Below are positions 7,740 through 37,284 of a stretch of DNA of 64,000 bases, one piece after another. The DNA is from Cloacibacterium normanense (lineage in GTDB: Bacteria; Bacteroidota; Bacteroidia; Flavobacteriales; Weeksellaceae). Each line of letters starts with the position of its first letter. Within the stretch, counting starts at the first letter, position 1. Made by a program: the position numbers and the translations under genes. A model generated the notes under the pieces. That model was not told the origin of the DNA. It made no database searches and saw only the letters and a list, made by a program, of their open reading frames with translations. The stretch is taken from assembly GCF_002943105.1 (NCBI RefSeq), contig NZ_PTPZ01000007.1:62001-126000 (forward strand). Reading direction: 5' to 3'.

Positions 7740-8447
7740 TTAAAGTTTAATTCCACTTTCTAGAGCCAGAGTCATCATGGTTCTAAGAGCAGTTTCTCTT
7801 TGGTCAGCAGAAATTTCTTCACCTGTTGGAATAATATCTGAAACTGTCAAAATCGTTGCTGCATTTTTCCCTAAATGTTTTGCATTAGCAAAAAGTGCGA
7901 AAGCTTCCATTTCTACTGCTGGACAATTATATTTCTCTGCAATGGCAGGAATTCCTGGTGTTTTTCTGTAGAAAACATCACTGGTGTGAATATTTGCCGC
8001 TTTAGTTTCAAGCGCTAATTCTTTAGCCGTTTCATTAATTACGTCAAAAGCTTTTCCTTGGTGATACATGATTTCTTCATCCATTTCCCAAGCAAATTTA
8101 GCATAAGTAGATTCACTTGCAGCTCCATCTACATTAATAAGGTCAAAAACATTAAGATCTGTAGTATAACCACCACAAGTCCCAATTCTGATAATGGTAT
8201 CTACATCATATTCTGTAAATAATTCGTAAGAATAAATCCCAATACTTGGCACTCCCATTCCACTCGCTCCTACAGAAATTTCTTTTCCTTTATACAAACC
8301 TGTAAAATAAAAAATATTTCTGGTCTTGCTTACCAATTTTACATCTTCTAGAAAATTATCTGCTATGTATTTAGCTCTTAAAGGATCTCCTGGCTGCAAT
8401 ACCGTTTTTGCAATTTCGCCTTTTTTGGCACTGATGTGAACACTCAT
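7740..8447 (-). CDS. deoD: purine nucleoside phosphorylase, DeoD type
   Basis: Phosphorolysis of purine (deoxy)nucleosides to base and (deoxy)ribose-1-phosphate in the cytoplasm. PGDPLRAKYIA at the phosphate-binding loop, RIGTCGG, VEMEAFALF (ribose-binding MEME-like motif) and TVSDII (the Asp that protonates the purine) identify the hexameric trimeric-fold PNP/UdP family; the overall pattern is DeoD rather than Udp. 235 residues is normal. It has its own -7 box at 8470-8477. Confidence 0.92.
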   Translation of the reverse strand: MSVHISAKKGEIAKTVLQPGDPLRAKYIADNFLEDVKLVSKTRNIFYFTGLYKGKEISVGASGMGVPSIGIYSYELFTEYDVDTIIRIGTCGGYTTDLNVFDLINVDGAASESTYAKFAWEMDEEIMYHQGKAFDVINETAKELALETKAANIHTSDVFYRKTPGIPAIAEKYNCPAVEMEAFALFANAKHLGKNAATILTVSDIIPTGEEISADQRETALRTMMTLALESGIKL

Positions 8448-13308: not shown

Positions 13309-14568
13309 ATGAACGAAAATTTACTCCAATATCTTTGGAAGTATAAGGTCTTTTCCAAATTTGACTTCAAAGATACCAATGGAAACCCAATCGAAATTCT
13401 AGATTTTGGAACTTTGAACACCAATTCAGGACCAGATTTTTCTTTGGCAAAAATTAAAACGAAAAACATCGTTTTAGCAGGAAACATAGAAATTCATGTG
13501 AAATCTTCGGATTGGTATTTTCACAATCATGACCTTCAAAAAGATTATCAATCGGTTATTCTGCATGTTGTTTATTTTAATGACAAAGATGTTTCTGAAC
13601 TGAAAGAAGCCGGAATTCCTACTTTAGAGCTGAAAGCGTATATTAATGAGGAAATTCTTGCAAAATATCAAACTTTAGAAAATCAATATCAGTTCATTCC
13701 GTGTGAAAGCATCTTTGATGCTTCTAAAGTTCCATTTCTTTTTTCAGAAGAGACTTTACTCAAAAAACTAGACGAAAAATCTATAGAAATTGAGCAACTT
13801 TTAGCTCAATCAAAGAACAATTACGAAGCCGTCTTATTTCAAAAAGTAGCGTATAGTTTTGGTCTAAAAGTAAATGCAGAAATTTATCAAAATATTGCAG
13901 AAAACATTGATTTCAAAATCATTCAGAAGATTTCTCAAAATCAATTTCAGTTAGAAAGTTTACTTTTTGGGAAAGGAAATTTATTAGAAAAAGAAACCGA
14001 AACAAATCAAAAATGGAAGAGAGAATTTGAATTTCTGAAAACTAAATTTAAAATTTCAGGACAAACTTTTCCAGTAAAATTTATGCGGTTAATGCCACCT
14101 TCTTTTCCTACGATTCGGCTTTCTCAGTTGGCGATGCTGTATCATCTTCAACCCAATTTATTTTCTAAAATTTTAAAGGCTAAAAATATTCAAGAATTAA
14201 AATCACTTTTCGAAAAAGTAAAAACTTCAGAATTTTGGCAAAATCACTACACGTTCGAAAAAACTTCCGAAGAAAAAATAGAGAAAAAATTGTCTGACGA
14301 TTTTATAGAAATTCTTCTCATCAATGCAGTTTTGCCTATTATTTACACGTATTTTAAAAATATAAATCCCGAAAAAACTGACCAAGTTTTAGAATTTTAC
14401 AAAAATTTAAGCCCTGAAAAAAATTCTATCATCTCTTCATGGAAAAAACTGAACGTAAAATTTAGTTCAGCATTAGAAACCCAAGCGTTTTTGTATCATC
14501 ATAAACATTTATGTTCATACAAAAACTGCTTGAATTGTAGTATTAGCTTGAAAATTTTAAAGGATTAA
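13309..14568 (+). CDS. DUF2851 family protein
   Basis: 419 residues, cytoplasmic, no signal or membrane segment. The start (NENLLQYLWKYKVF, then GTLNTNSGPDF) and the C-terminal Cys cluster (CSYKNCLNCSISLKIL) match the DUF2851 family of Bacteroidota. The clustered cysteines could bind metal; nuclease-like folds have been suggested for relatives, but this is inference. Its stop overlaps the stop of the convergent glucosidase gene by four bases, leaving no room for a terminator. Confidence 0.85.
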   Translation: MNENLLQYLWKYKVFSKFDFKDTNGNPIEILDFGTLNTNSGPDFSLAKIKTKNIVLAGNIEIHVKSSDWYFHNHDLQKDYQSVILHVVYFNDKDVSELKEAGIPTLELKAYINEEILAKYQTLENQYQFIPCESIFDASKVPFLFSEETLLKKLDEKSIEIEQLLAQSKNNYEAVLFQKVAYSFGLKVNAEIYQNIAENIDFKIIQKISQNQFQLESLLFGKGNLLEKETETNQKWKREFEFLKTKFKISGQTFPVKFMRLMPPSFPTIRLSQLAMLYHLQPNLFSKILKAKNIQELKSLFEKVKTSEFWQNHYTFEKTSEEKIEKKLSDDFIEILLINAVLPIIYTYFKNINPEKTDQVLEFYKNLSPEKNSIISSWKKLNVKFSSALETQAFLYHHKHLCSYKNCLNCSISLKILKD

Positions 14569-24870: not shown

Positions 24871-24877
24871 AATTTTC

Positions 24878-24892
24878 GTGGAGTTGGAGGGA
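24878..24892 (-). repeat. left attachment site core (duplicate of ssrA 3' end)
   Basis: GTGGAGTTGGAGGGA is identical to 36887-36901. Extending left, TTTTC versus TTTTT makes a 20-bp match with one difference. It corresponds to the acceptor/T-arm part of tmRNA. Confidence 0.9.
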
Positions 24893-24957
24893 AATGAACT
24901 TATATGAAGTTAATATACTTTATATTTTATAAATATTCTATTTATCAATATTTTACA

Positions 24958-24965
24958 TATATTTG
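24958..24965 (+). promoter_or_regulatory. possible -7 box TATATTTG upstream of the integrase gene
   Basis: Fits TAnnTTTG and lies about 66 bp before the integrase ATG, upstream of the repeated TTAGCACC sites, which an integrase bound there could cover. The region is very AT-rich, so chance matches are likely. Confidence 0.3.
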
Positions 24966-25008
24966 TATATATAAAAACATATTGTTTTTATGCTTAAATA
25001 TAGAAGTT

Positions 25009-25028
25009 TTAGCACCTAAATTAGCACC
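25009..25028 (+). repeat. subterminal repeat, left copy (candidate integrase arm sites)
   Basis: TTAGCACCTAAATTAGCACC contains two TTAGCACC octamers 12 bp apart. An identical 20-mer occurs near the right end at 36823-36842. It ends two bases before the integrase start codon. Confidence 0.85.
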
Positions 25029-25030
25029 TA

Positions 25031-26272
25031 ATGAATTATACATTTAAACTCAAAGAACCTAATAGCGAAAAGGAAACTCTTATTTACTTTCGTTCTTATT
25101 TTGGAAATGAAGGTAAAAATTTTATTTATTCTACCGGAGAAAAAATTAAACCTATTGAGTGGGATTTTGAAAATAGGCAACCCAATGATTTGAATGGACG
25201 AACAAAAAGAGCAGAAAATCATAGAAGCGTGAAAAAGCAGTTAGATAGGTATAGTGGTTTTTTTACTGAAATTGTCGATCGTTATAAGAATATTAATGAA
25301 GAACTAACCACAGATGTAATTAAACAGAGATTTGATGAACATTTTAAAAAAGTAACTGTTAAAAGTGATTTTTTTAGAATTTATCAAGATTTTTTAACTG
25401 AAAAAGAAAATGACTATACAGGGAATGCCATTTCTATTTCAACACTGAAAAGATATAAATGCAATAAGACATTGCTTGAAGATTTCCAAAAAGATTATAA
25501 AATTAAGATAGCACTCGGAAATTTCGATGAAAAGCTTTATAATAAGTTTCTCAAATATTGCATCGAGGAGAAGAAACATTCGGCAAATACGGTTCATCGT
25601 AATGTAGGATTGTTAAAAACTTTTTTAGGTTGGGCTTTGGGAAAAAAATATACATACAGCAATAGTTTTCTAAATTTCAAAAAACCTCCAAAATTCAGAA
25701 CCGATGAAATAGCTTTAAATTATCAGCAGGTAGAAGAAATTTACAATTACGATTTCAGTAAAAATAGAAGATTGGAAAGAGTAAGAGATTTGTTTGTTTT
25801 GGGTTGTGTTACAGGAATGCGTTTTGGAAATTACAGCAGTATTTCCAAAGAAGATATTCAAGAAGATTTTATTCGTGTAGTCGATTTGAAAAGCAAAACA
25901 AAAAATCTTTCAATACCATTAAACAGTATCTCACGAGCAATTTTAGAAAAGTATGATTATAATCTTCCCAATATTTCCAATCAGAAAATGAATAAATTTA
26001 TAAAAGAAGTCTTTCAGGAAATGGAGTTTACGGATGAAATAAAAAAGACAATGAAATATGGCGATGAACTGATAGATAAAAAATCGGAATTTTGGGAAAG
26101 GATATCCAGCCATACCGCCAGAAGAAGTTTTATTACAATAATGAAAAATAAACGAGTTCCAGATAAGGTAATTATGTCTTATACAGGACATAGAAGTTTG
26201 GAGGTTTTCAATAATTATTACCGCCCGAGCGAAGAAGATAAAGTTAATTATATGAATGAAGTTTTTAAATAA
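25031..26272 (+). CDS. int: site-specific tyrosine recombinase (integrase)
   Basis: 413 residues. An N-terminal Arm-binding-like region (FYFRSYFGNEGKNFIYSTGEKI-type start), a SAM-like core-binding domain (about 110-200) and a C-terminal catalytic domain. Catalytic residues are visible: Arg in GCVTGMRFGN, HTARRSF (HxxR), and TGHRSLEVFNNYYRP (His and the nucleophile Tyr). It is of the type that moves Bacteroidota integrative elements. Being next to the left attachment site and having the repeated octamers at its start codon make it the enzyme that inserted this element. Confidence 0.95.
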   Translation: MNYTFKLKEPNSEKETLIYFRSYFGNEGKNFIYSTGEKIKPIEWDFENRQPNDLNGRTKRAENHRSVKKQLDRYSGFFTEIVDRYKNINEELTTDVIKQRFDEHFKKVTVKSDFFRIYQDFLTEKENDYTGNAISISTLKRYKCNKTLLEDFQKDYKIKIALGNFDEKLYNKFLKYCIEEKKHSANTVHRNVGLLKTFLGWALGKKYTYSNSFLNFKKPPKFRTDEIALNYQQVEEIYNYDFSKNRRLERVRDLFVLGCVTGMRFGNYSSISKEDIQEDFIRVVDLKSKTKNLSIPLNSISRAILEKYDYNLPNISNQKMNKFIKEVFQEMEFTDEIKKTMKYGDELIDKKSEFWERISSHTARRSFITIMKNKRVPDKVIMSYTGHRSLEVFNNYYRPSEEDKVNYMNEVFK

Positions 26273-27000
26273 TGAAACAAAACAATTTGTATCTCAAATA
26301 CAATCCTGGTGCAGAAATTATAGCAATACCTTTTATTGTCAGTCGAATTATTAAAGGAAAAAATATAAAAGAATTGCTTTATGAAATTATTAATGCTCTT
26401 AGAGAAAAAGCTGCTAATGTAAAGTTAAATGAGCTGGAGAAATTTGAATCTCAAATAGAATATAATAACATTGAAAATTTTTTTGCCACACACTTTAAAG
26501 CGCTGGAAAATTCCAATGAACATACTTTCGAAGATAAAATAAAGTACTGTTTAAAAAAGTATGCTAAAGAATCCAAAAGCTTATTATCTGCTGCCAACAC
26601 AGTAGTTTTAGAAGAAAATTTTTTAAAAGGTGCACAAGAAACGCTTTTTTATTATTTTATTATAAATGAGAATAAAAAACCTAAAAAAACATTCCAATCA
26701 ATCTTTGCAAATAAGGAAAACTATAATAAATTCATTTCAGTAATGAAAAATAATTTTTACTTAAATGGAAATAACAAATTTGATATTCCCATTATCTTCT
26801 TTGCCGGAGTATTAACATTCCTCAAAAAAAAAGGTTTGATAAAGAATGTAAAAAATATTGACATCATAAAAGCCTTGAAAACGGATTTTGATTTTGAAAT
26901 TTCAACTGCTTCATTTTCAAATGGAATGCCCTATCCAACCAAAGAAGAAGAGAAAAAATTATTTGATGATTTATCAATAGAATTTATGATTAAGTATTAA
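26272..27000 (+). CDS. element-borne protein of unknown function
   Basis: 242 residues, not recognised. Basic, rich in Lys and Asn, no signal peptide; one moderately hydrophobic stretch (IPIIFFAGVLTFLKKKG) and a C-terminal part with alternating helices. The ATG shares one base with the integrase stop (TAATG), so it is almost certainly translated with the integrase and may help recombination or control it. This is inference from position only. Confidence 0.7.
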   Translation: MKQNNLYLKYNPGAEIIAIPFIVSRIIKGKNIKELLYEIINALREKAANVKLNELEKFESQIEYNNIENFFATHFKALENSNEHTFEDKIKYCLKKYAKESKSLLSAANTVVLEENFLKGAQETLFYYFIINENKKPKKTFQSIFANKENYNKFISVMKNNFYLNGNNKFDIPIIFFAGVLTFLKKKGLIKNVKNIDIIKALKTDFDFEISTASFSNGMPYPTKEEEKKLFDDLSIEFMIKY

Positions 27001-27078
27001 ATTTTACTGAATTTACTAAAATTCATAGATTTAAAACACAACTAAGCAATATTTGCATAGAATTTTAAAACAATTACT

Positions 27079-27357
27079 ATGCAGACAAGCAATCCATTTC
27101 AACCCATTATGGACGGATTAGAAGAGCTAAAAGAACTTATCCATTCCATAAAGAAAGAACCTGAAATCGAACTGAAAAAGAAATTCTATTCCTTTAAGGA
27201 GGCATCGGAAATTTTGAAGTTAGATTATCAGACCGTTCGTTCCCACGTTCTCAAAGGAAATATCAAAGCTGACAAAATAGGCAGATTTTACCGTATCAAT
27301 CATTTGGATTTGATGAATGCTTTAAATGAAGTAAAATCATTGAAGTATAGAAGATAG
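27079..27357 (+). CDS. helix-turn-helix (excisionase-like) DNA-binding protein
   Basis: 92 residues. After a short N-terminal helix, FYSFKEASEILKLDYQTVRSHVLKGNIKADKIGRFYRI is the winged-helix fold of MerR/Xis-type proteins (HTH_17): EASEIL, TVRSHV recognition helix, then the wing. In Bacteroidota mobile elements such proteins act as excision factors or regulators. It precedes the VapE-type helicase gene. Confidence 0.85.
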   Translation: MQTSNPFQPIMDGLEELKELIHSIKKEPEIELKKKFYSFKEASEILKLDYQTVRSHVLKGNIKADKIGRFYRINHLDLMNALNEVKSLKYRR

Positions 27358-27433
27358 ACATGTCTTTGTTTATCCGAAACACTATTCTCTAACCTTCCGT
27401 ATCTCTTACGGAGTAAATTAAAATCCACAAAAA

Positions 27434-28651
27434 ATGAGCGAGAAAGTTCCCTCTTCGACAACAGGGATTGAACCACTGATACAAAATGGGCATTTACACG
27501 GAAAGCCCACGTTGTACCAGTCGGAAACCAAATCAAAAACGATATATGACAGGACGATTGATTATCTGGAAGGGAAATACAAAATCCGTTTCAACGTCAT
27601 TGCGCTGGAACTGGAGATTTGCCTGAAAGATTCCGCCAGTGAATGGACTTCGTTAAACATCAATTCCCTTTTGATAGAGCTGGCGCAATCAGGAATCGAA
27701 ATCAATATGAATAAACTGGAAATTTTGGTAAAAAGCCATTTAATTCAGCAGTATAATCCTATCCGTGAGTATTTTGAAAATTTAGAAACTTGGGATGGAG
27801 AAAATTACATCAAAAATCTCTGTCAATATCTTAAAACTAATGATGACGAAGCATTTCTTTATCATTTTGAAAAATGGTTGACTAGAGCGGTTTTGTGTTC
27901 TCTAAATAAAGGTTATGTCAATAAACAATCTTTGGTTTTAGCATCGCATCAAAATTCGGGAAAATCATATTTTTTACGGTTTTTAATTCCGCCAAAATTA
28001 GAAAATTATTATACAGAAAATATATCCATCGACAAAGACGGAATTATTTCCATTTGTAAAAATTTGATTTGCAACCTTGATGAATTGGCAGTTTTATCAA
28101 AATCGGATGTGAATACTTTGAAATCTTTCATTTCAAAAAGCAGTGCCAATATTAGACTTCCTTATGCCAGAAAAGCTGAATTTTTAGAGCGGATTTGCTC
28201 GTTTGTAGGTTCAACCAATCGGACTGATTTTCTTACCGATGAAACAGGTAGCATTCGTTGGTTAATTTTTGAGGTGTATTCTTTCGACTTCAATTATTCT
28301 AAGGAGATCAATATCAATCAAGTCTGGGCTCAAGCCTATTACAATGCTTATGAAAGAAAAAATTACAATCCGGAATTGACAGCAACAGACATCACCGAAA
28401 ATGAAAAGCGGAACGAAAAATACGCACAGGTTTCGATGGAACAAGAGTTAATTTCGGCACATTTTGAAAAATCGGAAAAAATTGAGGAATTTCTTACGGC
28501 AACCGATATTATGTTGGCGATGAACAACGCTTTGGGATTGCGACTGAATAACATAAAAATAGGCAAAGCACTCACCAGTTTGAAATACCAAAGAATAAAA
28601 CATCCCAAACTTCAGGTGTACGGTTATCTCATCAAAAGAAAATCAGAGTAA
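27434..28651 (+). CDS. VapE-like P-loop replication helicase/primase-associated protein
   Basis: 405 residues resembling virulence-associated E / DUF5906-type SF3-like ATPases. NPIREYFENLETWDG is the typical VapE lead-in, SHQNSGKSYFLRFLI is the Walker A loop and ICNLDELAVL the Walker B region, followed by SKSSANIRLPYARKAE and FVGSTNRTDFLTDETG (sensor region). Such proteins unwind element DNA for replication. It lies just before a repeat cluster and a primase gene, consistent with a small replication module. Confidence 0.85.
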   Translation: MSEKVPSSTTGIEPLIQNGHLHGKPTLYQSETKSKTIYDRTIDYLEGKYKIRFNVIALELEICLKDSASEWTSLNINSLLIELAQSGIEINMNKLEILVKSHLIQQYNPIREYFENLETWDGENYIKNLCQYLKTNDDEAFLYHFEKWLTRAVLCSLNKGYVNKQSLVLASHQNSGKSYFLRFLIPPKLENYYTENISIDKDGIISICKNLICNLDELAVLSKSDVNTLKSFISKSSANIRLPYARKAEFLERICSFVGSTNRTDFLTDETGSIRWLIFEVYSFDFNYSKEININQVWAQAYYNAYERKNYNPELTATDITENEKRNEKYAQVSMEQELISAHFEKSEKIEEFLTATDIMLAMNNALGLRLNNIKIGKALTSLKYQRIKHPKLQVYGYLIKRKSE

Positions 28652-28654
28652 ATC

Positions 28655-28846
28655 TACCTACCAAAGTTACCAAGTTACCTTAATTATTTTAAATATCTAA
28701 TAATCAATAATTTATTAAGGTAATTGAATTTTTAAAATAATTACCTAAAACTACCTAAACAAAGGATTTATGGTAAGAAGGTAAAGAAAGGTAATGACAA
28801 GAATATGCTTTAAAACACTGTAAATCAATGGAAAGGTAATGAGGTA
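28655..28846. repeat. cluster of TTACC/GGTAA sites between helicase and primase genes
   Basis: In about 190 bp there are roughly a dozen TACC or GGTA words: mostly TACC on the left, GGTAA on the right. A perfect 10-bp inverted pair, TTACCTTAAT (28675-28684) and ATTAAGGTAA (28714-28723), flanks a very AT-rich centre. This looks like a protein-binding array, possibly the replication origin of the element or an operator for the primase gene. Confidence 0.6.
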
Positions 28847-28882
28847 AGAGAAATTAGAAAAAATATAGAAAACAAATAAAAA

Positions 28883-29842
28883 ATGAACTGCAAACAATTC
28901 AACACCATAAAGTTGGAAGAAGTCCTTCAAAATCTCGGACATCTTCCTACAAAACAAACGGATAAAGAAGCTTGGTATCTCAATCCTTTTTCCAACGAGA
29001 ACCAAGCCTCTTTTAAATTGGATAAAAGAAACAATATTTGGTATCTCCACTCGGAAGGTATAGGCGGAAATAATACCGATTTTATGCTAAAATATCTGAA
29101 TGCTTCCGTAAAAGAAGTTTTGGAATGGTCGGAAAAGCAAAACTTTTCTTCTTTTCAACCGCAAAATATTATTTGTTCAAAAATTTCAAAACCAAATTAT
29201 AAAATCACGGCAATTAATGAACTTGAAAATGAAAATCTGAAACAATATCTTCATCAAAGAGGGCTTTCGTCAAGTGCTTATCCGTTAGTAAAAGAAATTC
29301 ATTTTACATTGGGCGAGAAAAATCTTTATGCTATCGGATTTGAAAACCTTTCCGGAGGTTGGGAATTGAGAAATTCATTTTACAAAGGTTCTTTATTGAA
29401 GAAAGATATTTCTGTTTTTAAGCTTAATAATGAAAGCCAAAATCAAAATGAAACAGGGAAAAGAATCGCTGTTTTTGAAGGATTTATGGATGCTTTGTCT
29501 TTTGTTGAGCTGAAACCGTTTTTCAATGGCGATGTATTGGTGATGAATTCTATTTCATTACTGCATAAAACCAAAGAATATTTAAAAAATTATTCCGAAA
29601 TCCATTTGTTTTTAGACAATGATAAAGCAGGAGAAATTTGCAAAAATGAAATTCTGAAATCATTTCCTGAAGCCAAAGATTGTTCGGAAATTTATTTGCC
29701 TCACAAAGATTTGAATGACTATTTGCTTTCCGGAATTAATACAAAAATCAAAATAGAAGAACACAACCCAATCAAATCAAAACACGAAGAGCAGGAAAGC
29801 GAAACCAACCAAGCGAATCCGATTTACAAAAGAAAACGTTGA
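28883..29842 (+). CDS. Toprim-domain DNA primase-like protein lacking the zinc-finger cysteines
   Basis: 319 residues. The N-terminal 70 residues align in shape to the CHC2 primase finger (WYLNPFSNENQASFKLD, YLHSEGIGGNNTDFM) but contain none of the expected zinc-binding Cys. The Toprim domain follows: AVFEGFMDALSF with the Glu, and EIHLFLDNDKAGE with the DxD-like Asp pair. Such proteins are frequent on Bacteroidota mobilizable elements and may prime complementary-strand synthesis after transfer. A Gln/Asn-rich tail ends the protein. Confidence 0.83.
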   Translation: MNCKQFNTIKLEEVLQNLGHLPTKQTDKEAWYLNPFSNENQASFKLDKRNNIWYLHSEGIGGNNTDFMLKYLNASVKEVLEWSEKQNFSSFQPQNIICSKISKPNYKITAINELENENLKQYLHQRGLSSSAYPLVKEIHFTLGEKNLYAIGFENLSGGWELRNSFYKGSLLKKDISVFKLNNESQNQNETGKRIAVFEGFMDALSFVELKPFFNGDVLVMNSISLLHKTKEYLKNYSEIHLFLDNDKAGEICKNEILKSFPEAKDCSEIYLPHKDLNDYLLSGINTKIKIEEHNPIKSKHEEQESETNQANPIYKRKR

Positions 29843-29957
29843 AAATGCGTGCGGATATTTTTTTTAACAACTATCGGCAAAAGTTAGGAGCTCATTCGCA
29901 ACTTTGAAGGTCGATGCTCTCCCAACAAAGTTTCTACTTCGCTCTGCGAGGCTTTTA

Positions 29958-30120
29958 GCGGTAAAAAATAGTATAAGGTTCAGCGTTTTACCTGTGAAAA
30001 ATAATTCAGAGTAAGGCTTTCCCAACCTGTAAAAAATAATGCAAGGTCAGTCCGTAACCTGAAAAAAAAAAATGATCAGGTTGTAGAGTAACCTGCGTAA
30101 AAAATTCACAGGTCAAATCA
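29958..30120 (+). repeat. iteron-like repeats upstream of the relaxase gene (candidate oriT)
   Basis: Five related units, consensus near ACCTGnnAAAAAATnAT, begin at about 29958, 29990, 30025, 30057 and 30091, spaced 32-35 bp apart. Unit 4 contains a perfect inverted pair AACCTGA/TCAGGTT, and unit 5 ACCTG/CAGGT. The array fills the 307-bp gap (29843-30149) just upstream of the relaxase start, the usual location of an origin of transfer. The first 115 bp of the gap show no further structure that I can name. Confidence 0.7.
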
Positions 30121-30149
30121 TCATCAAATCATCATCAAAAGTAAGAAAA

Positions 30150-31310
30150 ATGAAGACATCCATCAATTTCAAAGTGGCAAAATCAGATTCCGAAATTCAT
30201 AATTTTAGAAAGAAATCCTTTGATTACATCCGCAAAGATTTAACCCCGAAAAACGAATATTGGATGGAGCAAAAAATTGCAGACCGACTGTTAAAAATAG
30301 AAGCTTTTTGCAAAGAAAAATCAGGCAGAAAATTACAGAAAAATGCAATGCCGGTTCGGGAAGCGGTGGTTGTGATTAAAGAAAATACCTCAATGCAGGA
30401 TTTGCACAACCTCTCAAAAAGATTGGAAGATGAACTGAAAATTAGGGTTTTTCAAATCGCCATTCACAAAGACGAAGGGCATTACGATAAAGACACCAAA
30501 GAATGGAAACCGAATTATCACGCTCATTTAGTCGCAGATTGGCAGGATTTGGAAACAGGAAAAACGTTGAAACATCAATCCTTTCATTATTCCAAAATGC
30601 AGGATTTGGCTTCGGAATGTTTGGGAATGGAACGTGGTGTTTCTGGTTCACTCACAAGACTGGAAGCGGTAGAATTTAAAATCAAGAAAAGAGAAGAAGA
30701 TTTGAAAATTTTGGAAGAAAGGTGCAATGAAATGCAACAGGAAATTGATTCTAAAAAAGCAGAAGATTTAATCGTAAAAGAATCCGATTTTCTCGGTTTT
30801 CAGAAAATAAAAACGGACAAAACGATTGAAAACTACAAAAAGGCTATCAAATCCAACAATCTCCAAATTCTGAAAAATAAAACAGAATTGGAATCCAAAG
30901 AGAAACAAATTGCAGAGCTGAAAACCAAAATCGAAAGCCTAAAAAACGAAGTTTTCTTTTTCAAAAACAAAAACTCCACGCTCCTGACCAATGCAACTGT
31001 TTTTGCTGTTGAAAAGAAAAAATATTTGGAATCGGTGGTTAATATCATACAGAAAACCATCAATAATGAGCGTTTGAAAGTATCTTTTTATGAACGCCTA
31101 AAATCTAAAGATTTTAAAATTTCTGATGAAGTTGCAAGGATTTGTGAAAAAATATCGAAAGACAATAATATTCCGTTTTCTGCTTTTGAGGAGGTTTTTA
31201 GGGATTCTGAGAAAATGGCAAAGATTTTCACATTGCTTCGGTTTGGAGAAAAGAGAAATAGTCAGCCTGAAGAAATCAACATTGAAAGAAAGAGCAAATT
31301 GGGGCGCTAA
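30150..31310 (+). CDS. MobV-like relaxase (mobilization protein)
   Basis: 386 residues. The N-terminal 170 residues carry a relaxase: QIAIHKDEGHYDKD followed by PNYHAHLVADW gives the HxDEG...HxH metal-binding motif (motif III) of MobV/Pre-type enzymes. The rest is a long coiled coil (about 175-300) and a basic C-terminal part. It should nick the element at oriT and lead the strand into a recipient. The catalytic Tyr/His is not certain from reading. No coupling protein or secretion genes are present in the element. Confidence 0.85.
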   Translation: MKTSINFKVAKSDSEIHNFRKKSFDYIRKDLTPKNEYWMEQKIADRLLKIEAFCKEKSGRKLQKNAMPVREAVVVIKENTSMQDLHNLSKRLEDELKIRVFQIAIHKDEGHYDKDTKEWKPNYHAHLVADWQDLETGKTLKHQSFHYSKMQDLASECLGMERGVSGSLTRLEAVEFKIKKREEDLKILEERCNEMQQEIDSKKAEDLIVKESDFLGFQKIKTDKTIENYKKAIKSNNLQILKNKTELESKEKQIAELKTKIESLKNEVFFFKNKNSTLLTNATVFAVEKKKYLESVVNIIQKTINNERLKVSFYERLKSKDFKISDEVARICEKISKDNNIPFSAFEEVFRDSEKMAKIFTLLRFGEKRNSQPEEINIERKSKLGR

Positions 31311-31322
31311 AAGTGATTTAAA

Positions 31323-33047
31323 TTAAGATAAAGCACCTAAAATACCACCTTGTCCTTCCATCTCTTTTTTCCTTTGTCTTACAAAATCTGCTGGGCGTAT
31401 GCCGTTGATTTCCTGAAAGAGGTCAGAAAAATTCTGGCGGGAACCTATTCCACATTCATCAGCCAATCCTTGAACTTTTAGTTGCAGATAATATGGATCT
31501 TCATACATTAATTTGGTAATGTAATTAATGCGAAGCGTTGAAAGATACTTGCTGAAATTTACACCTTTCACATCATTGATATACTGCGAAAGATAATATT
31601 TGTTTGTATTTAAAATATTTGCAAGTCTGTCGATAGTTAGCCCATTTTCTTTAAATCCTTTATTAGTCTCAAACTCTTTTAGTTTATTTTGTAAATCATT
31701 AAATATATCTTCACTTAATACTGAATTTGCATAGATGGAAACGCTTTCGTACGATAGTGAAGTTTGCTGGTTTTGCTGTATTAGATTATTTTCTAGTTCA
31801 AGATATTTTAATTTTATCTGTTTACCGTTTTTGTAAAATTTCCAAGCTAATAAAGCAACTATAAGTAATATTGTGATAAGTATGACAATTGTTCCTAATC
31901 CCCATTTATTACGAGTTTCTAATTTAGTTTTCGATTCTTCCAAGATTTGCGTATCATAATCTTTATGGATTTTTTCAGACAAATATTTATAATCTCTATT
32001 AAGAATGCTATCTGCTTTCAGAAGTTTTTTTGAGTACTCCAACTCTTTTTCCGAATCCTTTTGATTATGGTAATACTTAATCAGAAAATTGTAATTTCCA
32101 AGAATTTCGGGAACAATAAATTGTCTTTTCTGAAAAGTAGAATCTACTTTCTCAAATTGTTGTATTGCCAAATCTTCTTTTCCCAATCCTAAATAACTTT
32201 TTCCGATGTAGAAATCTGCGACAGAAGCCCAATAGAAATCATCTTCTTTGTTAAAAACAGGCAGGCTTTTTTGTAAAAGTGTAATAGCGGAATTATAATC
32301 TTTGTGATGATATACAGAAATTCCTTTACATTTTGTTAGGTAAGCTTTTTCTGATGGGAATTCATCGATTTTTGAAAAACGAAGCCCTGCATCAATAATT
32401 GAGTCTGCCTTCCTGTAATCTTTTATATTTCTGTAACAAACGGCAATTTGATGTAAGCTATTGAGATAGCCTTTAGTAGAATTGTATATTATATTTCGGT
32501 GGGAGTTTCCTTTTGCTTTTGGTTCAAAATAAGAAATGCATTCATTAAAGTGTTCAATGCCTTCGTTGTAGTATCCCAGATAACTTTTCACTAATCCCAT
32601 TTGATAGATAATCTTATATTTAAGATAATCATCTTTATTGTCTTTAGAATATTGATAGGCTTTTAAATATTCTGCCAATGCAGATTGGTAGTTTTTATAA
32701 TAGAAATAGTACAAACTGCCTTTCAGCAGGTAAACAGTAGAAATGAGTTCCTTATCATCTGTTTTGTGTGCAGTAGCTACGGCACTATCGGCATATTTTA
32801 TTTTAAGTCTTTTATCATTAGAGTAAAAAGTAGCATCTCTATATCCCTGCACCAATTCGGGATAGTTCTTTTCCTGCTTGGCTCTTTGTATGTAAATTTT
32901 CACATAGTGTAATGCTTTTTTATCACTCTCATCAAAATTTTCATAAACACTTCTTAGGGTTTCATAATTTGTCTGTCCATATATTTTTCCAGAAGAAAAA
33001 AACAAAGACAAATAAAAAAAACAAAAAAATATTTTTCTATATAACAC
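31323..33047 (-). CDS. membrane-anchored TPR protein with C-terminal AraC-type DNA-binding domain
   Basis: 574 residues: signal/anchor (KIFFCFFYLSLFFSSGKIYGQ), a periplasmic array of tetratricopeptide repeats (about 50-350), one membrane helix (LGTIVILITILLIVALLAWKF, about 380-400), a short coiled coil, then an AraC/XylS helix-turn-helix (about 465-560: RLANILNTNKYYLSQYIND and GLADECGIGSRQNFSDLFQ). One-component membrane regulators of this form are common in Chryseobacterium. It is divergent from the lipoprotein operon, so that operon is its likely target. Its ligand is unknown. Confidence 0.88.
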   Translation of the reverse strand: MLYRKIFFCFFYLSLFFSSGKIYGQTNYETLRSVYENFDESDKKALHYVKIYIQRAKQEKNYPELVQGYRDATFYSNDKRLKIKYADSAVATAHKTDDKELISTVYLLKGSLYYFYYKNYQSALAEYLKAYQYSKDNKDDYLKYKIIYQMGLVKSYLGYYNEGIEHFNECISYFEPKAKGNSHRNIIYNSTKGYLNSLHQIAVCYRNIKDYRKADSIIDAGLRFSKIDEFPSEKAYLTKCKGISVYHHKDYNSAITLLQKSLPVFNKEDDFYWASVADFYIGKSYLGLGKEDLAIQQFEKVDSTFQKRQFIVPEILGNYNFLIKYYHNQKDSEKELEYSKKLLKADSILNRDYKYLSEKIHKDYDTQILEESKTKLETRNKWGLGTIVILITILLIVALLAWKFYKNGKQIKLKYLELENNLIQQNQQTSLSYESVSIYANSVLSEDIFNDLQNKLKEFETNKGFKENGLTIDRLANILNTNKYYLSQYINDVKGVNFSKYLSTLRINYITKLMYEDPYYLQLKVQGLADECGIGSRQNFSDLFQEINGIRPADFVRQRKKEMEGQGGILGALS

Positions 33048-33159
33048 TTTTATAACACGTTTATGAATACAAATTTAGATAAAACAGCCTAAAATTCATC
33101 ATTTACAAATTATTTATAATCTATATAAATAAAATTTAAATTGTTAATTGTCAGTTAAA

Positions 33160-33199
33160 TATTTGTCCTAATTTCTTTTTTACGACGTCCTTATTTGTC
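33160..33199 (+). repeat. direct repeat TATTTGTC, 32 bp apart, upstream of the cargo operon
   Basis: TATTTGTC occurs at 33160-33167 and 33192-33199, each followed after 1-4 bases by AATTTC-like sequence. The 32-bp spacing is about three helical turns, as for a dimeric regulator on one DNA face. Whether it is an operator for the AraC-type protein is inference. Confidence 0.35.
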
Positions 33200-33279
33200 A
33201 ATTTCCATTTCAAGACTGGCTTTTTTAGGAAAAGTCATTTTGCACAAATAATTTAGATCCAGAATTCAATCATAAAATT

Positions 33280-33293
33280 TCCCGGCGCCGGGA
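33280..33293. promoter_or_regulatory. perfect 14-bp GC palindrome TCCCGGCGCCGGGA
   Basis: Fully symmetric and entirely G/C apart from its ends, in otherwise AT-rich DNA, 22 bp before the start of the small lipoprotein gene. It may be an operator or a 5'-leader hairpin that blocks or paces translation. Confidence 0.6.
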
Positions 33294-33315
33294 TAAACTT
33301 AAAAAACAGAATAAT

Positions 33316-33543
33316 ATGAAAAAGTTTATCTCTTGGGTATCAGCAATTGCTGTATTTGTTTTGGTAATCAGTTGTAGAGAAGCAGAAGAATTAACAACAG
33401 TTCCTGATGGAATACAAAATAATTCAATATCTGCAAAAGTAAAAAAAGATTCAGTGGGGATTACTACTCCCACCTCCAATGAATCTAATTCATTAGAGGT
33501 ACAAGAAAGCGACCCTCCGAAAAAGGATGAAATTAAGTGGTAG
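33316..33543 (+). CDS. small cargo lipoprotein
   Basis: 75 residues: signal peptide MKKFISWVSAIAVFVLVISC with Cys 20, then a short, charged, Ser/Pro/Lys/Asp-rich tail (SNSLEVQESDPPKKDEIKW) with no predicted fold. First gene of the operon divergent from the TPR/AraC regulator. No known family. Similar short lipoproteins precede larger lipoproteins in related clusters as far as I recall, but I cannot confirm it. Confidence 0.7.
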   Translation: MKKFISWVSAIAVFVLVISCREAEELTTVPDGIQNNSISAKVKKDSVGITTPTSNESNSLEVQESDPPKKDEIKW

Positions 33544-33599
33544 TTGTAAAAAGTGTGAATGAGTAGATTAGTAATAAAAATAACCTTAAAATCAAATTT

Positions 33600-35225
33600 A
33601 TGAAAAAAATCAAAATTTTAGCATTAATAACATCAATGCTGTTAATAAATTCTTGTAATGATGACTTACTGAATACATCACAACAAGATATAAAAAACGA
33701 AGTAATATCTGATGCAAGTGTGAAAAATGGAAGGTTATACTTTCCAAATAAGTCTTCGTTGCAATTTCATTATGATAAACTCAAAAATGCAAGTGAAGAT
33801 GAAATTGCAAACTATATTGATAAAAAAGATTATTTACCTTTAAGACCAATTTTAACTGAAGAAAATGAAAATTTAGTCGCTCAAAAACTGAAATCAAGGA
33901 TTGGTGGTTTGAAGCAAAAAGCTAAAGCATCAAAACATTCAAAAATATCTAATTATTTAAGCAAGACTACAAGTGATGAAGAAATAATCGATGATATTGA
34001 TGATTTAGAAGAAGTTATAGGTGATGACGCTTATGGAGCTTTTCTAAATAATGATGCTGAAATACAAGTAGGAACTGAAATTTATAAATATACAGATGTT
34101 GGTCTATTTGTAATTGAAGAAGATAAATATGCTCAACTTGATTCTTTTTTAGCTTCTAAAAATATTTCAAGTGACCTTTTAATTCCAACGGAAGAAACAG
34201 CAAAAATTAATTTTATCCAACAACAACCTTGCAATCAATTAAGTTTAGTTGCTTCAACCGACATTGAATACTTCAATTCATATGACTGCGGAGGAAATTC
34301 AGGTGGTGGTTATGGAGGAGGAGGAAGCACATACACTCCACCAGCAAACAATTACGACCAGATGTATAATTTCATTAATAATTTGCAAAATTGTTCACCA
34401 ACAAATGGTTTATTTGATGGGATATTTGGAGATAGCGATATATGTATAGATAAATATGAAAGCAGATATAGAGTAAAAACAAAGGCATATAATTATAATT
34501 ACTATTTGGTTTATAATTTGGGTGTAAAAGTAAAGCATCAATACAAAGGATGGACTGGATTGTGGAGAAAAGAAAACTGTCAAGAATTAAGATTAGGTGT
34601 TATTTCTGGACAATTTTCATACGATTATTCTAGCTATTTTCAATATCCTACTACACAGTATGGTATTACAACAATATACAATAATAATAGCCGTTTAATG
34701 TTTGATGCAAACGTAAATTGGTCACAAAATGGACTAAACATAACTGGATATTCTACACAAGGTTTTCCAAAAATTTTGCAAGATGATATTGTAATAGAAC
34801 AGTTTAGTAATAATCAATATATCAATCAAGCAATTCAAGCAGGCAATAAACAATTAGCTGCAGATAAATTAAACCAGCAATTTTGGAACTATGTAATTCC
34901 AACTTTAGGCAATTGGTGGCAAAACCTTGGAAAACCAACTCCAGATTCAAATAACATTACATATACATACAAAGCTCCTGCATTAGGTAAAATATTAATT
35001 CAAAAAACTTTGTATAAACATGCTTACAACGATGATAAATTAGAAAAGTCTTTTGATTTTGGATTTCAGATTGGGTTTAATCTCAATCCTGACAATGGTA
35101 ATATTTCACCAGATTTAAGTGGAAGCGCATTAAAAAAACCTCAAGAATTTAGAGTTTTAATGTATGGAATTGCTAAAAGAAATGGAGTTTGGCACGGAAG
35201 TAAAATTAATACTATCAACAACTAA
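33600..35225 (+). CDS. large two-part cargo lipoprotein of unknown function
   Basis: 541 residues with a lipoprotein signal (LLINSCNDD, Cys 19). About residues 20-210 form an acidic, helical domain (KNGRLYFPNKSSLQFHYDKL, EEIIDDIDDLEEV); a flexible Gly/Tyr/Ser linker (SGGGYGGGGSTYTPP, about 233-250) joins it to a C-terminal part of about 290 residues rich in Tyr, Asn and aromatic beta strands (YQYPTTQYGITTIYNN, LGNWWQNLGKP). That plan, conserved-looking anchor plus linker plus variable tail, resembles surface effector proteins, but no catalytic motif is visible. Four genes share the operon. Confidence 0.8.
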   Translation: MKKIKILALITSMLLINSCNDDLLNTSQQDIKNEVISDASVKNGRLYFPNKSSLQFHYDKLKNASEDEIANYIDKKDYLPLRPILTEENENLVAQKLKSRIGGLKQKAKASKHSKISNYLSKTTSDEEIIDDIDDLEEVIGDDAYGAFLNNDAEIQVGTEIYKYTDVGLFVIEEDKYAQLDSFLASKNISSDLLIPTEETAKINFIQQQPCNQLSLVASTDIEYFNSYDCGGNSGGGYGGGGSTYTPPANNYDQMYNFINNLQNCSPTNGLFDGIFGDSDICIDKYESRYRVKTKAYNYNYYLVYNLGVKVKHQYKGWTGLWRKENCQELRLGVISGQFSYDYSSYFQYPTTQYGITTIYNNNSRLMFDANVNWSQNGLNITGYSTQGFPKILQDDIVIEQFSNNQYINQAIQAGNKQLAADKLNQQFWNYVIPTLGNWWQNLGKPTPDSNNITYTYKAPALGKILIQKTLYKHAYNDDKLEKSFDFGFQIGFNLNPDNGNISPDLSGSALKKPQEFRVLMYGIAKRNGVWHGSKINTINN

Positions 35226-35227
35226 AT

Positions 35228-35596
35228 ATGAGACTTTCAATATTAATCATTTTGGTTTTATTAAACTCTTGTGGAAGAATAATAGAGCAAAATCAATTTA
35301 ATAGTGAGTTAAATAATTATAATTCACCATACCAAGGAACTTGGTATGGTATTTATAGTGGTTCAGGTATTAATTCAACATTCACATTAAAGGTATATAA
35401 AGCTGGAAATGTTGAAGTAATAAGAAATATATATAATTCATCTGAAACATTTTATGGACAAGTTTTTGACAATGGAGTTTTAAACTCTGTTTACTCTCAA
35501 AATTCGGAATTTACTTTAAATGGTAGTTTAGCCACGAAAAGTGGAACTTGGAAACAAAATAATTTATCTGGAAATTGGACAATAAATAAACAATAA
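35228..35596 (+). CDS. small lipoprotein, third gene of the cargo operon
   Basis: 122 residues, lipobox LLNSCG (Cys 15). The mature part is a compact beta-rich domain (YQGTWYGIYSGSGI, VEVIRNIY, GTWKQNNLSGNWTINKQ) that looks like a lipocalin or avidin-like small barrel. It begins two bases after the 541-residue lipoprotein, so they are translated together. Its size and position would suit an immunity or chaperone partner, but that is inference. Confidence 0.72.
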   Translation: MRLSILIILVLLNSCGRIIEQNQFNSELNNYNSPYQGTWYGIYSGSGINSTFTLKVYKAGNVEVIRNIYNSSETFYGQVFDNGVLNSVYSQNSEFTLNGSLATKSGTWKQNNLSGNWTINKQ

Positions 35597-35601
35597 TATA
35601 A

Positions 35602-36168
35602 ATGAAAAAGACAATAATATTATTCACTATAATCATTTCAAATTTAATTTTTTCACAAGAATTAAATAAAGATGTAGAGAATTCAATCTTCAGCACTCAG
35701 ATAGGAATTGCTGGAATTTGGTTTAATAATGAAGCAAAAATAACCAAAAACACCGTTTTAAGAAGTGAAATTGGACTATCCGCTGGTTTTTGGGGAGGAA
35801 GTTACTATGAAAAAAAAGGATTTTTATTAACTCCTCTTTTGCGTCTTGAGCCAAGATACTATTATAATATTGATCGTAGATTATCCAAAGGAAAAAATAT
35901 TGAAAGTAATTCTGCTAATTTTTTCTCTCTGAAATCAACTTTTCATCCAAATTGGTTTGTAATTTCAAATTATGATAACGTAAATATTATAAGTGATTTT
36001 TCTATAATTCCAACATATGGATTCAGAAGAAACATAAATAAGAACTTCAATTATGAATTTTCTTTTGGATTAGGCTATCGTTATTTATATTTAAAAGATG
36101 CAGGATACATAAATAACAAATCTGAAATAGCACCGGACTTGACTTTTAGAATTGGATATACATTTTAA
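35602..36168 (+). CDS. outer-membrane beta-barrel protein, last gene of the cargo operon
   Basis: 188 residues: signal peptide MKKTIILFTIIISNLIFSQ, then alternating amphipathic strands (GIAGIWFNNEAKI, LRSEIGLSAGFWGGSYY, PLLRLEPRYYYNIDRR, FSFGLGYRYLYL) ending in the C-terminal aromatic FRIGYTF, a usual signature of outer-membrane barrels of the porin/OmpA-like type. Six bases separate it from the previous gene. A strong terminator follows at 36244. Confidence 0.8.
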   Translation: MKKTIILFTIIISNLIFSQELNKDVENSIFSTQIGIAGIWFNNEAKITKNTVLRSEIGLSAGFWGGSYYEKKGFLLTPLLRLEPRYYYNIDRRLSKGKNIESNSANFFSLKSTFHPNWFVISNYDNVNIISDFSIIPTYGFRRNINKNFNYEFSFGLGYRYLYLKDAGYINNKSEIAPDLTFRIGYTF

Positions 36169-36243
36169 AAAACATTCTATATCATAGGTACTCGTGGCAG
36201 AACTCCACAATTTAATAAAATCTCATAATAATCTAAAATAACG

Positions 36244-36277
36244 ACCTCTTTTAAAGCGATTTAAAGGAGGTTTTTTT
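36244..36277 (+). terminator. terminator of the cargo operon
   Basis: ACCTCTTTTAAA (36244-36255) pairs with TTTAAAGGAGGT (36260-36271) with one G-T wobble around GCGA, followed by seven T. Confidence 0.88.
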
Positions 36278-36513
36278 GTAGGGCTTTAAAATCTGCTTTT
36301 TTCTGGTGGTAAGGCAATCATCAAAATATAGTTAACAAAAATACAGATTGTTATAACCTTGTAAAAAACCAACTGGAATTGGGAAATTAGCCGTCCTAAT
36401 TCGTAAATTTTTAAGAAAATCAAAAATAAAAAGATTTATCATTCCGGTATTTTGTAGTGCGCAAAATGAATTTACGATGTTTTCAGGAAGCCTTCTTGTT
36501 TTATCAGACAACA

Positions 36514-36792
36514 ATGATACTAATTAATCATCTTATTTTCTTCATTCTTCAGACAGGAGATTATGGAGTTGAAGCGAATGATGATTTTTTCAAAGGGAAA
36601 GGGATAGTTTTTAGATTTGTAATAACTGTTTTGTATGGTATTCCTATAGGTTTATTAATTATAAAATTCAATCTTCACACAAATCAATTCGTTGTGGGAT
36701 ATTCAATTGTAATATACTATTTTATTTTACTTTTTTTTGAATTTAGAATCTTATACAATACATTTTTTTATTCAAGAAAAAACAGAAATTGA
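36514..36792 (+). CDS. possible small membrane protein near the right end of the element
   Basis: From the ATG at 36514: 92 residues with three hydrophobic stretches (LINHLIFFILQ, VFRFVITVLYGIPIGLLII, VVGYSIVIYYFILLFF) and a basic C-terminus. The frame is open from 36457. No family recognised and codon use is very AT-rich, so it could be a chance frame; a three-helix pattern with short charged loops argues for a real protein. Confidence 0.45.
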   Translation: MILINHLIFFILQTGDYGVEANDDFFKGKGIVFRFVITVLYGIPIGLLIIKFNLHTNQFVVGYSIVIYYFILLFFEFRILYNTFFYSRKNRN

Positions 36793-36822
36793 CAATCGGA
36801 ATCTTGCTTCCGCTAATTGATA

Positions 36823-36842
36823 TTAGCACCTAAATTAGCACC
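36823..36842 (+). repeat. subterminal repeat, right copy (candidate integrase arm sites)
   Basis: TTAGCACCTAAATTAGCACC, identical and in the same orientation to 25009-25028. It lies 45 bp inside the right attachment core. Confidence 0.85.
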
Positions 36843-36856
36843 CGTAAATATAAACC

Positions 36857-36879
36857 CCTGTAAATCAATAATTTACAGG
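36857..36879 (-). terminator. element-borne replacement terminator for ssrA
   Basis: CCTGTAAAT (36857-36865) pairs with ATTTACAGG (36871-36879) around CAATA. Reading leftward it begins 7 bp after the ssrA 3' core and is followed by a T-rich stretch. It is within the element, so ssrA regains a terminator after insertion. Confidence 0.7.
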
Positions 36880-36886
36880 AGTTTTT

Positions 36887-36901
36887 GTGGAGTTGGAGGG
36901 A
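36887..36901 (-). repeat. right attachment site core, 3' end of ssrA
   Basis: GTGGAGTTGGAGGGA, identical to 24878-24892. Fifteen bases overlap the tmRNA acceptor stem and T-arm. Confidence 0.92.
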
Positions 36902-37284
36902 TTCGAACCCTCGTCCAAACAAGCAATACGCAAGCTTTCTACATGCTTATTTTGCTATTGGTTTTCGTCGTAAAGCAGACAGCAAACAGCCAACTTTACG
37001 CTTATCTTCTATAATTTTCGTTCCCGAACCGAAGTTTTTCGGGACTTATTTCCGCATTTTCTATGCCTCGGAATCGAACGTCGCAGAACAGAACTTTCGG
37101 GAGACATCTTGTTTCCTTACTATACTTCGGGAAAAACGCTAATCCTACTAAGCTTCGGATTAAGCAGCAAGAGCAAACTCTTCGTTGCCAGTTAAATTCT
37201 GTAGCAAGGGATTAAAGAGATCGCGCTACGGTTCTCTGCATGCTTACTTACCCATTGGTCTTGCTGTCGAAACCAGTCAACCCC
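36888..37284 (-). ncRNA. ssrA: transfer-messenger RNA (tmRNA)
   Basis: Rescues stalled ribosomes and tags the unfinished peptide. On the reverse strand the 5' end is GGGGTTGACTGGTTTCGACA and the 3' end carries the T-arm GGGTTCGAATCCC and acceptor CAACTCCA; GGGGTTG pairs with CAACTCC (one G-U). CCA is not encoded. The tag frame at 37160-37189 reads GGC AAC GAA GAG TTT GCT CTT GCT GCT TAA, i.e. GNEEFALAA with the AlaLeuAlaAla degron; the resume codon is Gly. Length about 397 nt. The 3' end is the attachment site of the mobile element. Confidence 0.96.

Follow-up and report, generated by a model that had tools for sequence, protein, structure and literature searches.

What is the function of the 307-bp gap (29843-30149) that separates a Toprim/CHC2 primase gene (28883-29842, plus strand) from the relaxase gene mob (30150-31310, plus strand) in Cloacibacterium normanense? 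We analysed the surrounding 64,000-nucleotide stretch of DNA, hereafter the window, whose numbering is used throughout. The earlier note on this DNA had drawn attention to an array of five repeat units in the gap and proposed it as a candidate transfer origin (oriT).

The gap lies within an integrative mobilizable element of about 12 kb (24893-36884), whose limits were drawn from att-like repeats and an empty site and are approximate to the length of the repeat. The element is inserted at the 3' end of ssrA (tmRNA; 36885-37284, minus strand). The att-like direct repeat (24873-24899 and 36882-36908) is 85% identical between its two copies, the right one being located in the ssrA 3' end. The empty site is found in a congener (G006), in which the left flank (97.8% identity over 1493 bp) adjoins the tmRNA gene. 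An exact 20-bp direct repeat, TTAGCACCTAAATTAGCACC, is also present near the element ends (25009-25028 and 36823-36842) and perhaps represents integrase arm sites. Protein family matches identified a tyrosine integrase (25031-26272), an excisionase-like HTH gene (xis; 27079-27357) and a VapE/VirE-like helicase-primase gene (27434-28651), all on the plus strand. The order along the element is integrase, orf242, xis, VapE-like gene, primase, a conserved block and the repeat array (both described below), relaxase, an AraC/TPR regulator on the strand opposite to the relaxase, and three cargo proteins. The three cargo genes (541, 122 and 188 aa; 33600-36168) gave no match in Pfam, NCBIfam, PHROGs or PADLOC. 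The family libraries detected no mating-pair genes on the element, orf242 and the three right-hand proteins matching no family. The integrase, the att repeats, the empty site and a relaxase without mating-pair genes together identify an integrative mobilizable element. Two matches to TIGR03782 (TraJ family, Bacteroidetes conjugation) were obtained in the genome at 85.8 and 84.2 bits versus a cut-off of 289.95, and a conjugation helper in the same genome is possible from these sequences.

The relaxase has 386 residues, with the motifs SEIHNFRK and HKDEGH...NYHAH (106-126) and a predicted coiled-coil C-terminus. H17, N18, R20, H106, D108, E109, H111, H124 and H126 are invariant in 31 chosen relaxases; we take H17 to be the motif-I histidine and the HKDEGH...NYHAH residues to be the HxDE...HxH motif by name. 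Aligned by hhalign with six plasmid mobilization proteins, the relaxase gave a probability of 100% and an E of 6.7e-65 across 196 N-terminal columns; among the matches listed, its N-terminal part shares 37-41% identity with mobilization proteins from small Bacteroidales plasmids. PF03432 scored 18.3 bits in the window relaxase, below the cut-off of 24.6; among the 31 relaxase members, 30 match it with an E no higher than 0.1. No Mob_Pre match was listed for the window protein. Five of the six plasmid proteins pass PF03432 (26.9-33.4 bits), and the protein of a 2.8-kb plasmid has no match. PLSDB types two of seven plasmids as MOBV, the 2.8-kb one as MOBP and four as non-mobilizable without a relaxase. 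These sequence comparisons argue for homology to typed plasmid relaxases, and the MOBV class label is tentative. An AlphaFold model of the protein was poor (mean pLDDT 69, pTM 0.33, residues 9-43 below 50), and Foldseek with this model gave a best E of 0.017 and no relaxase among the best 50 matches. A sequence search of the PDB with an E limit of 1 returned 14 sequences, each aligned from residue 164 on and none of them named as a relaxase. Contig search located the relaxase in 49 loci, and a profile search of 320 genomes from the family detected it in 63; in a sample of the order it was found in 12 of 395 genomes, all of the same family, under a first-look filter that may lose distant relatives.

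We then describe the array. A unit profile confirmed that five units, 32-35 bp apart, precede the relaxase gene, as had been noted: the five top profile positions within the gap start at 29957, 29990, 30025, 30057 and 30091, with spacings of 33, 35, 32 and 34 bp, and the array extends from 29957 to 30113 on the plus strand. The scores are, in order, 8.3, 17.3, 21.4, -1.2 and 31.4, two of the five units being weak by this measure. At a score of at least 13, three array units and nothing else were detected on both strands of the 64-kb window, and 500 first-order Markov simulations of the gap yielded no match. The profile was trained partly on the window's own units, so independent support comes from recurrence in relatives. 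The shared motif proposed previously, ACCTGnnAAAAAATnAT, fits units 2-5 with 3, 4, 1 and 4 mismatches but fails for unit 1, which reads AGCGGTAAAAAATAGTATAAGGT and lacks ACCTG; at 4 mismatches it also matches the unrelated position 30108. Unit 4 carries a 2-nt insertion. The profile from relatives indicates that the motif is better given as ACCTGnGTAAAATAnnTACAGGT, an imperfect palindrome of about 23 nt, in which T4 (66), G5 (66), A10 (67), A12 (67) and A11 (61) are fixed or nearly so among 67 distinct units. A looser unit pattern, which gave 206 matches in the window's own genome versus 182 for its reversed control, was replaced by the profile. Scanning 29800-30200 revealed two promoter-like sites versus 0.9 expected and one terminator-like site versus 0.2 expected, the latter on the minus strand within the array (30095-30077).

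The most conserved sequence of the gap lies to the left of the array, outside positions 29958-30120 to which the earlier note had been confined. It is a block (29866-29954, plus strand) that we propose as the oriT from the conservation of its centre, the aligned relatives and its association with the relaxase. The centre, hereafter the core, is the 23-nt word GTTAGGAGCTCATTCGCAACTTT (29883-29905, plus strand). Allowing up to five mismatches, it was located in 49 of 61 loci, where it has the form GTTAGGAGC[T/G]CATTCGCAACTTT with no variation beyond T/G; one further match, with five mismatches, was found in L057. The core is unchanged though the relaxases drop to 59% identity with the window's. 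Forty-four distinct block sequences were aligned; as each was chosen because it holds the centre exactly, conservation can be judged fairly from the flanks only. The 12 loci in which no core was found are L009-L011, L040, L046, L049, L053-L055 and L059-L061. Among them, L009-L011 and L061 have partial or doubtful relaxase matches (that of L061 is partial, with no core in its 12 kb), L046, L049 and L053 may correspond to places where the core is far from the relaxase, and L059 fits genome G265 (see below).

In the 320 family genomes, a search allowing two mismatches located the core at 85 places, spread over 64 genomes. Of these places, 78 are exact and seven have one or two mismatches; the seven include three relatives from another genus (L164-L166), in which GTTAGG is changed to GTTAAG. 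In a sample of the class, one of 198 genomes has the core, the window's own. A reversed-pattern control gave zero matches in the own genome and the family and one in the class sample. Plasmid and phage collections searched with 29870-29965 returned no match, and one contig of a viral collection has the core together with a relaxase. No paper containing pieces of the core was found in open-access full text, figures lying outside that coverage, or by title and abstract in topic listings. In the pair L038 and L039, a 5.7-kb contig labelled Streptomyces sp. ISL-12 carries the core and upstream sequence of Chryseobacterium sp. ISL-6, likely a cross-contamination.

The core is closely associated with the relaxase gene. 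A same-strand relaxase match lies downstream in 75 of the 85 core places, at a distance of up to 600 bp in 60 and of 1.3-24.5 kb in 15; the pairing looked solely for a core upstream on the relaxase's strand. For the other ten places, no relaxase match was found on the same strand up to 40 kb away, and G279 is the only one of them whose contig holds any relaxase match. Conversely, a core accompanies 73 of the 74 relaxase matches longer than 900 bp. In the exception, G265, the relaxase is near a contig start and a core lies 2.7 kb from the end of another contig, which suggests that an assembly break accounts for the missing core. An 897-bp relaxase match in G238, just under the 900-bp line, has no core. 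Counted by genome (hand tally of the 320), 59 have core and relaxase, five the core only, four partial relaxases only and 252 neither; in the window's own genome three cores pair with three relaxases. Lack of conservation near the relaxase in relatives had been named as an argument against an oriT here: the core passes this check in 73 of the 74 long matches, and the array is only partly conserved. The correlation of distances across the core, from primase to mob, is modestly lower (0.81) than within genes (0.90-0.91). L025, with its core at 7753, is a mosaic whose identity to L020 is about 30-48% upstream and 66-100% downstream, the switch falling within about 50 bp left of the core. Such a mosaic, in this one case, would be expected with recombination at a transfer origin.

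Cores with no nearby relaxase were observed in a recurrent setting. Those of G207, G256 and G222 (L142, L143 and L148) lie 363-577 bp upstream of a gene for a 513-aa protein, followed by one for a protein of more than 1000 aa. The 513-aa protein, of which one was scanned, bears Por_Secre_tail, a type IX secretion domain. Its relatives are present within 1.7 kb of cores that have the relaxase kilobases away (L144, L088, L091, L094 and L098).

The array recurs less widely than the core. Fifty distinct core-to-relaxase intervals (of 87) were compared, all picked because the core lies no more than 600 bp from the start of the relaxase gene, so that all 50 have the core by selection. By hand tally, at least one unit at score 7 is present in 36 and at least two in 33, and the spacing is 32 or 33 bp for 43 of 52 successive unit pairs in relatives. 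The units near the core are on the relaxase strand and mostly to its right, with units to its left as well in L023 and L024. Away from the core, at score 15 and in loci of at least 10 kb, L025 has three hits, and L034 and L048 have a single one apiece. L025 also has a second pair of units, 32 bp apart, on the minus strand (13958-14012) at the contig edge, with no core in the sequence examined. Conservation of the array is confined to part of the relaxase family. Within a unit, the two arms pair better with each other than with swapped arms (5.04 versus 4.58 of 8; z 5.0), a weak sign of covariation, as the units share descent and pairing at (6,18) falls below the shuffled level.

Units so spaced could be iterons, marking a replication origin or single-strand initiation sites for the primase and the VapE-like protein, separate from the oriT. 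Their spacing is close to three helical turns, and each of the 27 array-bearing loci compared also carries the primase, the sole tested gene always there; integrase, xis, orf242 and VapE are variably present. The array also has hairpin potential on both strands: as single-stranded DNA it folds better than shuffled sequence on either one (z -2.16 and -2.47), that of L003 doing so on one strand. However, nine loci (L028, L038, L039, L045, L047, L048, L050, L051 and L056) have the primase without the array, so the link between the two may be one of common descent, and we regard an iteron role as unlikely. The simplest and most likely reading of these sequences is that the array offers accessory, clade-limited protein-binding sites.

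An array that is itself the oriT, as first proposed, or the relaxase's own binding or autorepression site, would account for its palindromic units, their near-constant spacing and its position adjoining the relaxase start codon. The distribution of units speaks against it. Fourteen of the 50 intervals have no unit to the right of the core (in two of them, L002, whose stretch starts inside a unit, and L023, with a unit on the left only, a cut or left-hand unit is present), and no unit is found near the core in the nine far-core loci examined, from the 15 places at which the core is at least 1.3 kb from the relaxase. The core stays in all of these, in copies without repeats and at up to 24.5 kb from the relaxase. 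Since part of the relaxase family lacks units and the core persists there, the array is probably not the core of the oriT, and we hold this alternative to be improbable; the more general part of the proposal stands, in that the gap very probably contains an oriT.

The block consists of inverted repeats with four successive arms, AACT, AAAGTT, AACTTT and AAAGTT, all hairpins being given on the plus strand. In hairpin H0 (29869-29885), AACT (29869-29872) pairs with AGTT (29882-29885). In HA (29880-29905), AAAGTT (29880-29885) pairs with AACTTT (29900-29905) around the loop AGGAGCTCATTCGC. In HB (29900-29932), AACTTTG (29900-29906) pairs with CAAAGTT (29926-29932). A small hairpin, HC (29942-29950), has the sequence CTC-TGC-GAG. 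HA shares one arm with each of H0 and HB and excludes both, and H0 and HB are compatible, both forming in the plus-strand folds predicted for the window and for L164. We had considered H0, HA and HB as three mutually exclusive hairpins and rejected this, as the arms show that HA alone excludes the others.

HB and HC covary, and H0 is compensated in one lineage. For HB, 12 cells of the alignment are changed on both sides versus 2.5 in shuffles, and none of 500 shuffles reached that value; its doubly changed pairs number two, which 40 of 500 shuffles equalled. Sliding HB by -3 columns gave a covariation score of 0.073 versus 0.078, the sequences being related. Across 78 distinct contexts, the first inner pair of HB is always a standard one, G-C in 74 and A-T in 4. 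In HC, each of the three pairs is changed on both sides in at least one sequence. H0 is paired in 98.9% of cells (alignment A2), with no pair changed on both sides; in L164-L166, a single lineage of another genus, the core GTTAAG together with the left arm CTTAACT extends the stem to 7 bp. HA pairs in all 44 sequences and is nearly invariant, showing no covariation among them. The window block as single-stranded DNA folds no better than shuffles (z -0.23 and -0.31). By eye, the HB loop of the L148 core region (G222), TTAGGACGTAAGGACTTT, is the exact reverse complement of a usual loop, AAAGTCCTTACGTCCTAA, as if the hairpin loop had flipped. A block that acts as a structured RNA or leader controlling the relaxase mRNA, with the array as tandem RNA hairpins and the oriT elsewhere, would fit the covarying hairpins, the better-than-shuffle folding of the array and a core upstream on the relaxase strand in 75 of 75 pairs (the sole arrangement searched), but a fifth of these cores (15 of 75) lie 1.3-24.5 kb from the relaxase, a long distance for a leader, some loci have array units to the left of the core, and the gap has no Rfam match at gathering score, with chance-level ones up to E 10, so that we give this reading very little chance.

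We return to the block as the oriT of the element's relaxase, itself a relative of the relaxases on small Bacteroidales plasmids; this reading we consider highly probable from the comparative data. The gap would be the transfer origin region of the integrative mobilizable element, with the relaxase (30150-31310) recognising the block (29866-29954). The block arms could pair in two ways, the middle arms forming HA or the outer pairs forming H0 and HB, and the DNA may switch between these states. In the proposed mechanism, the relaxase would nick one of the strands, either within the HA loop AGGAGC[T/G]CATTCGC or next to it, probably cleaving through the motif-I histidine. The nicked strand would then pass through the conjugation machinery of a co-resident element serving as helper. 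The array, rather than being nicked, would most likely bind an accessory or regulatory protein on one helix face, and the bound protein might organise the relaxosome or tune relaxase expression.

A bolder version, which we offer as a long shot, would make the block a new family of oriT that switches between two hairpin states. The phased palindromes of the array would then be a strip on which the element's primase, or a partner, is loaded to prime second-strand synthesis once transfer has taken place, and the relaxase-free copies beside secretion-tagged cargo would be islands using the relaxase in trans. As a probable oriT core, the 23-nt word would provide a sequence handle for transfer origins in elements of the Chryseobacterium group, and the proposed hairpin switch is open to testing by paired mutations.

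How does this region compare with known systems? The small Bacteroidales plasmids, whose 2.8-kb records are presumably pBI143, share relaxase motifs with the element but differ visibly in their upstream sequences. Hairpins of the GGTTATAG/CTATAACC type are present in four of the five plasmid upstream regions listed (L134, L136, L138 and L140), and the core was not found in seven plasmid loci at eight mismatches, one chance-like match apart. With other upstream sequences in these plasmids, relaxase homology does not bring the oriT sequence along. MobM, the relaxase of pMV158, has a nick motif of the GTGTG type, and this motif is absent from the block.

The oriT of pMV158 (MobM, MOBV1) is described as having three overlapping, mutually exclusive hairpins around the nick (PMC5863519). 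The block resembles the oriT so described in its overlapping inverted repeats, alternative hairpins and repeated arm and in its position just upstream of the relaxase gene, a likeness of layout only. In contrast to the three pMV158 hairpins, HA of the block excludes H0 and HB, which can coexist, and the block, unlike the pMV158 arrangement in that account, also occurs many kilobases from the relaxase (PMC5863519). Among the integrative mobilizable elements of Bacteroidetes, Tn5520 (MobV) and Tn4555 and NBU1 (MobP) are presented as canonical (PMC5704250). The element described here is like them in being integrated and in carrying a relaxase of its own and, as far as found, no transfer apparatus; going by the published descriptions, it differs in residing in ssrA and in carrying the primase, the VapE-like gene and the conserved block (PMC5704250).
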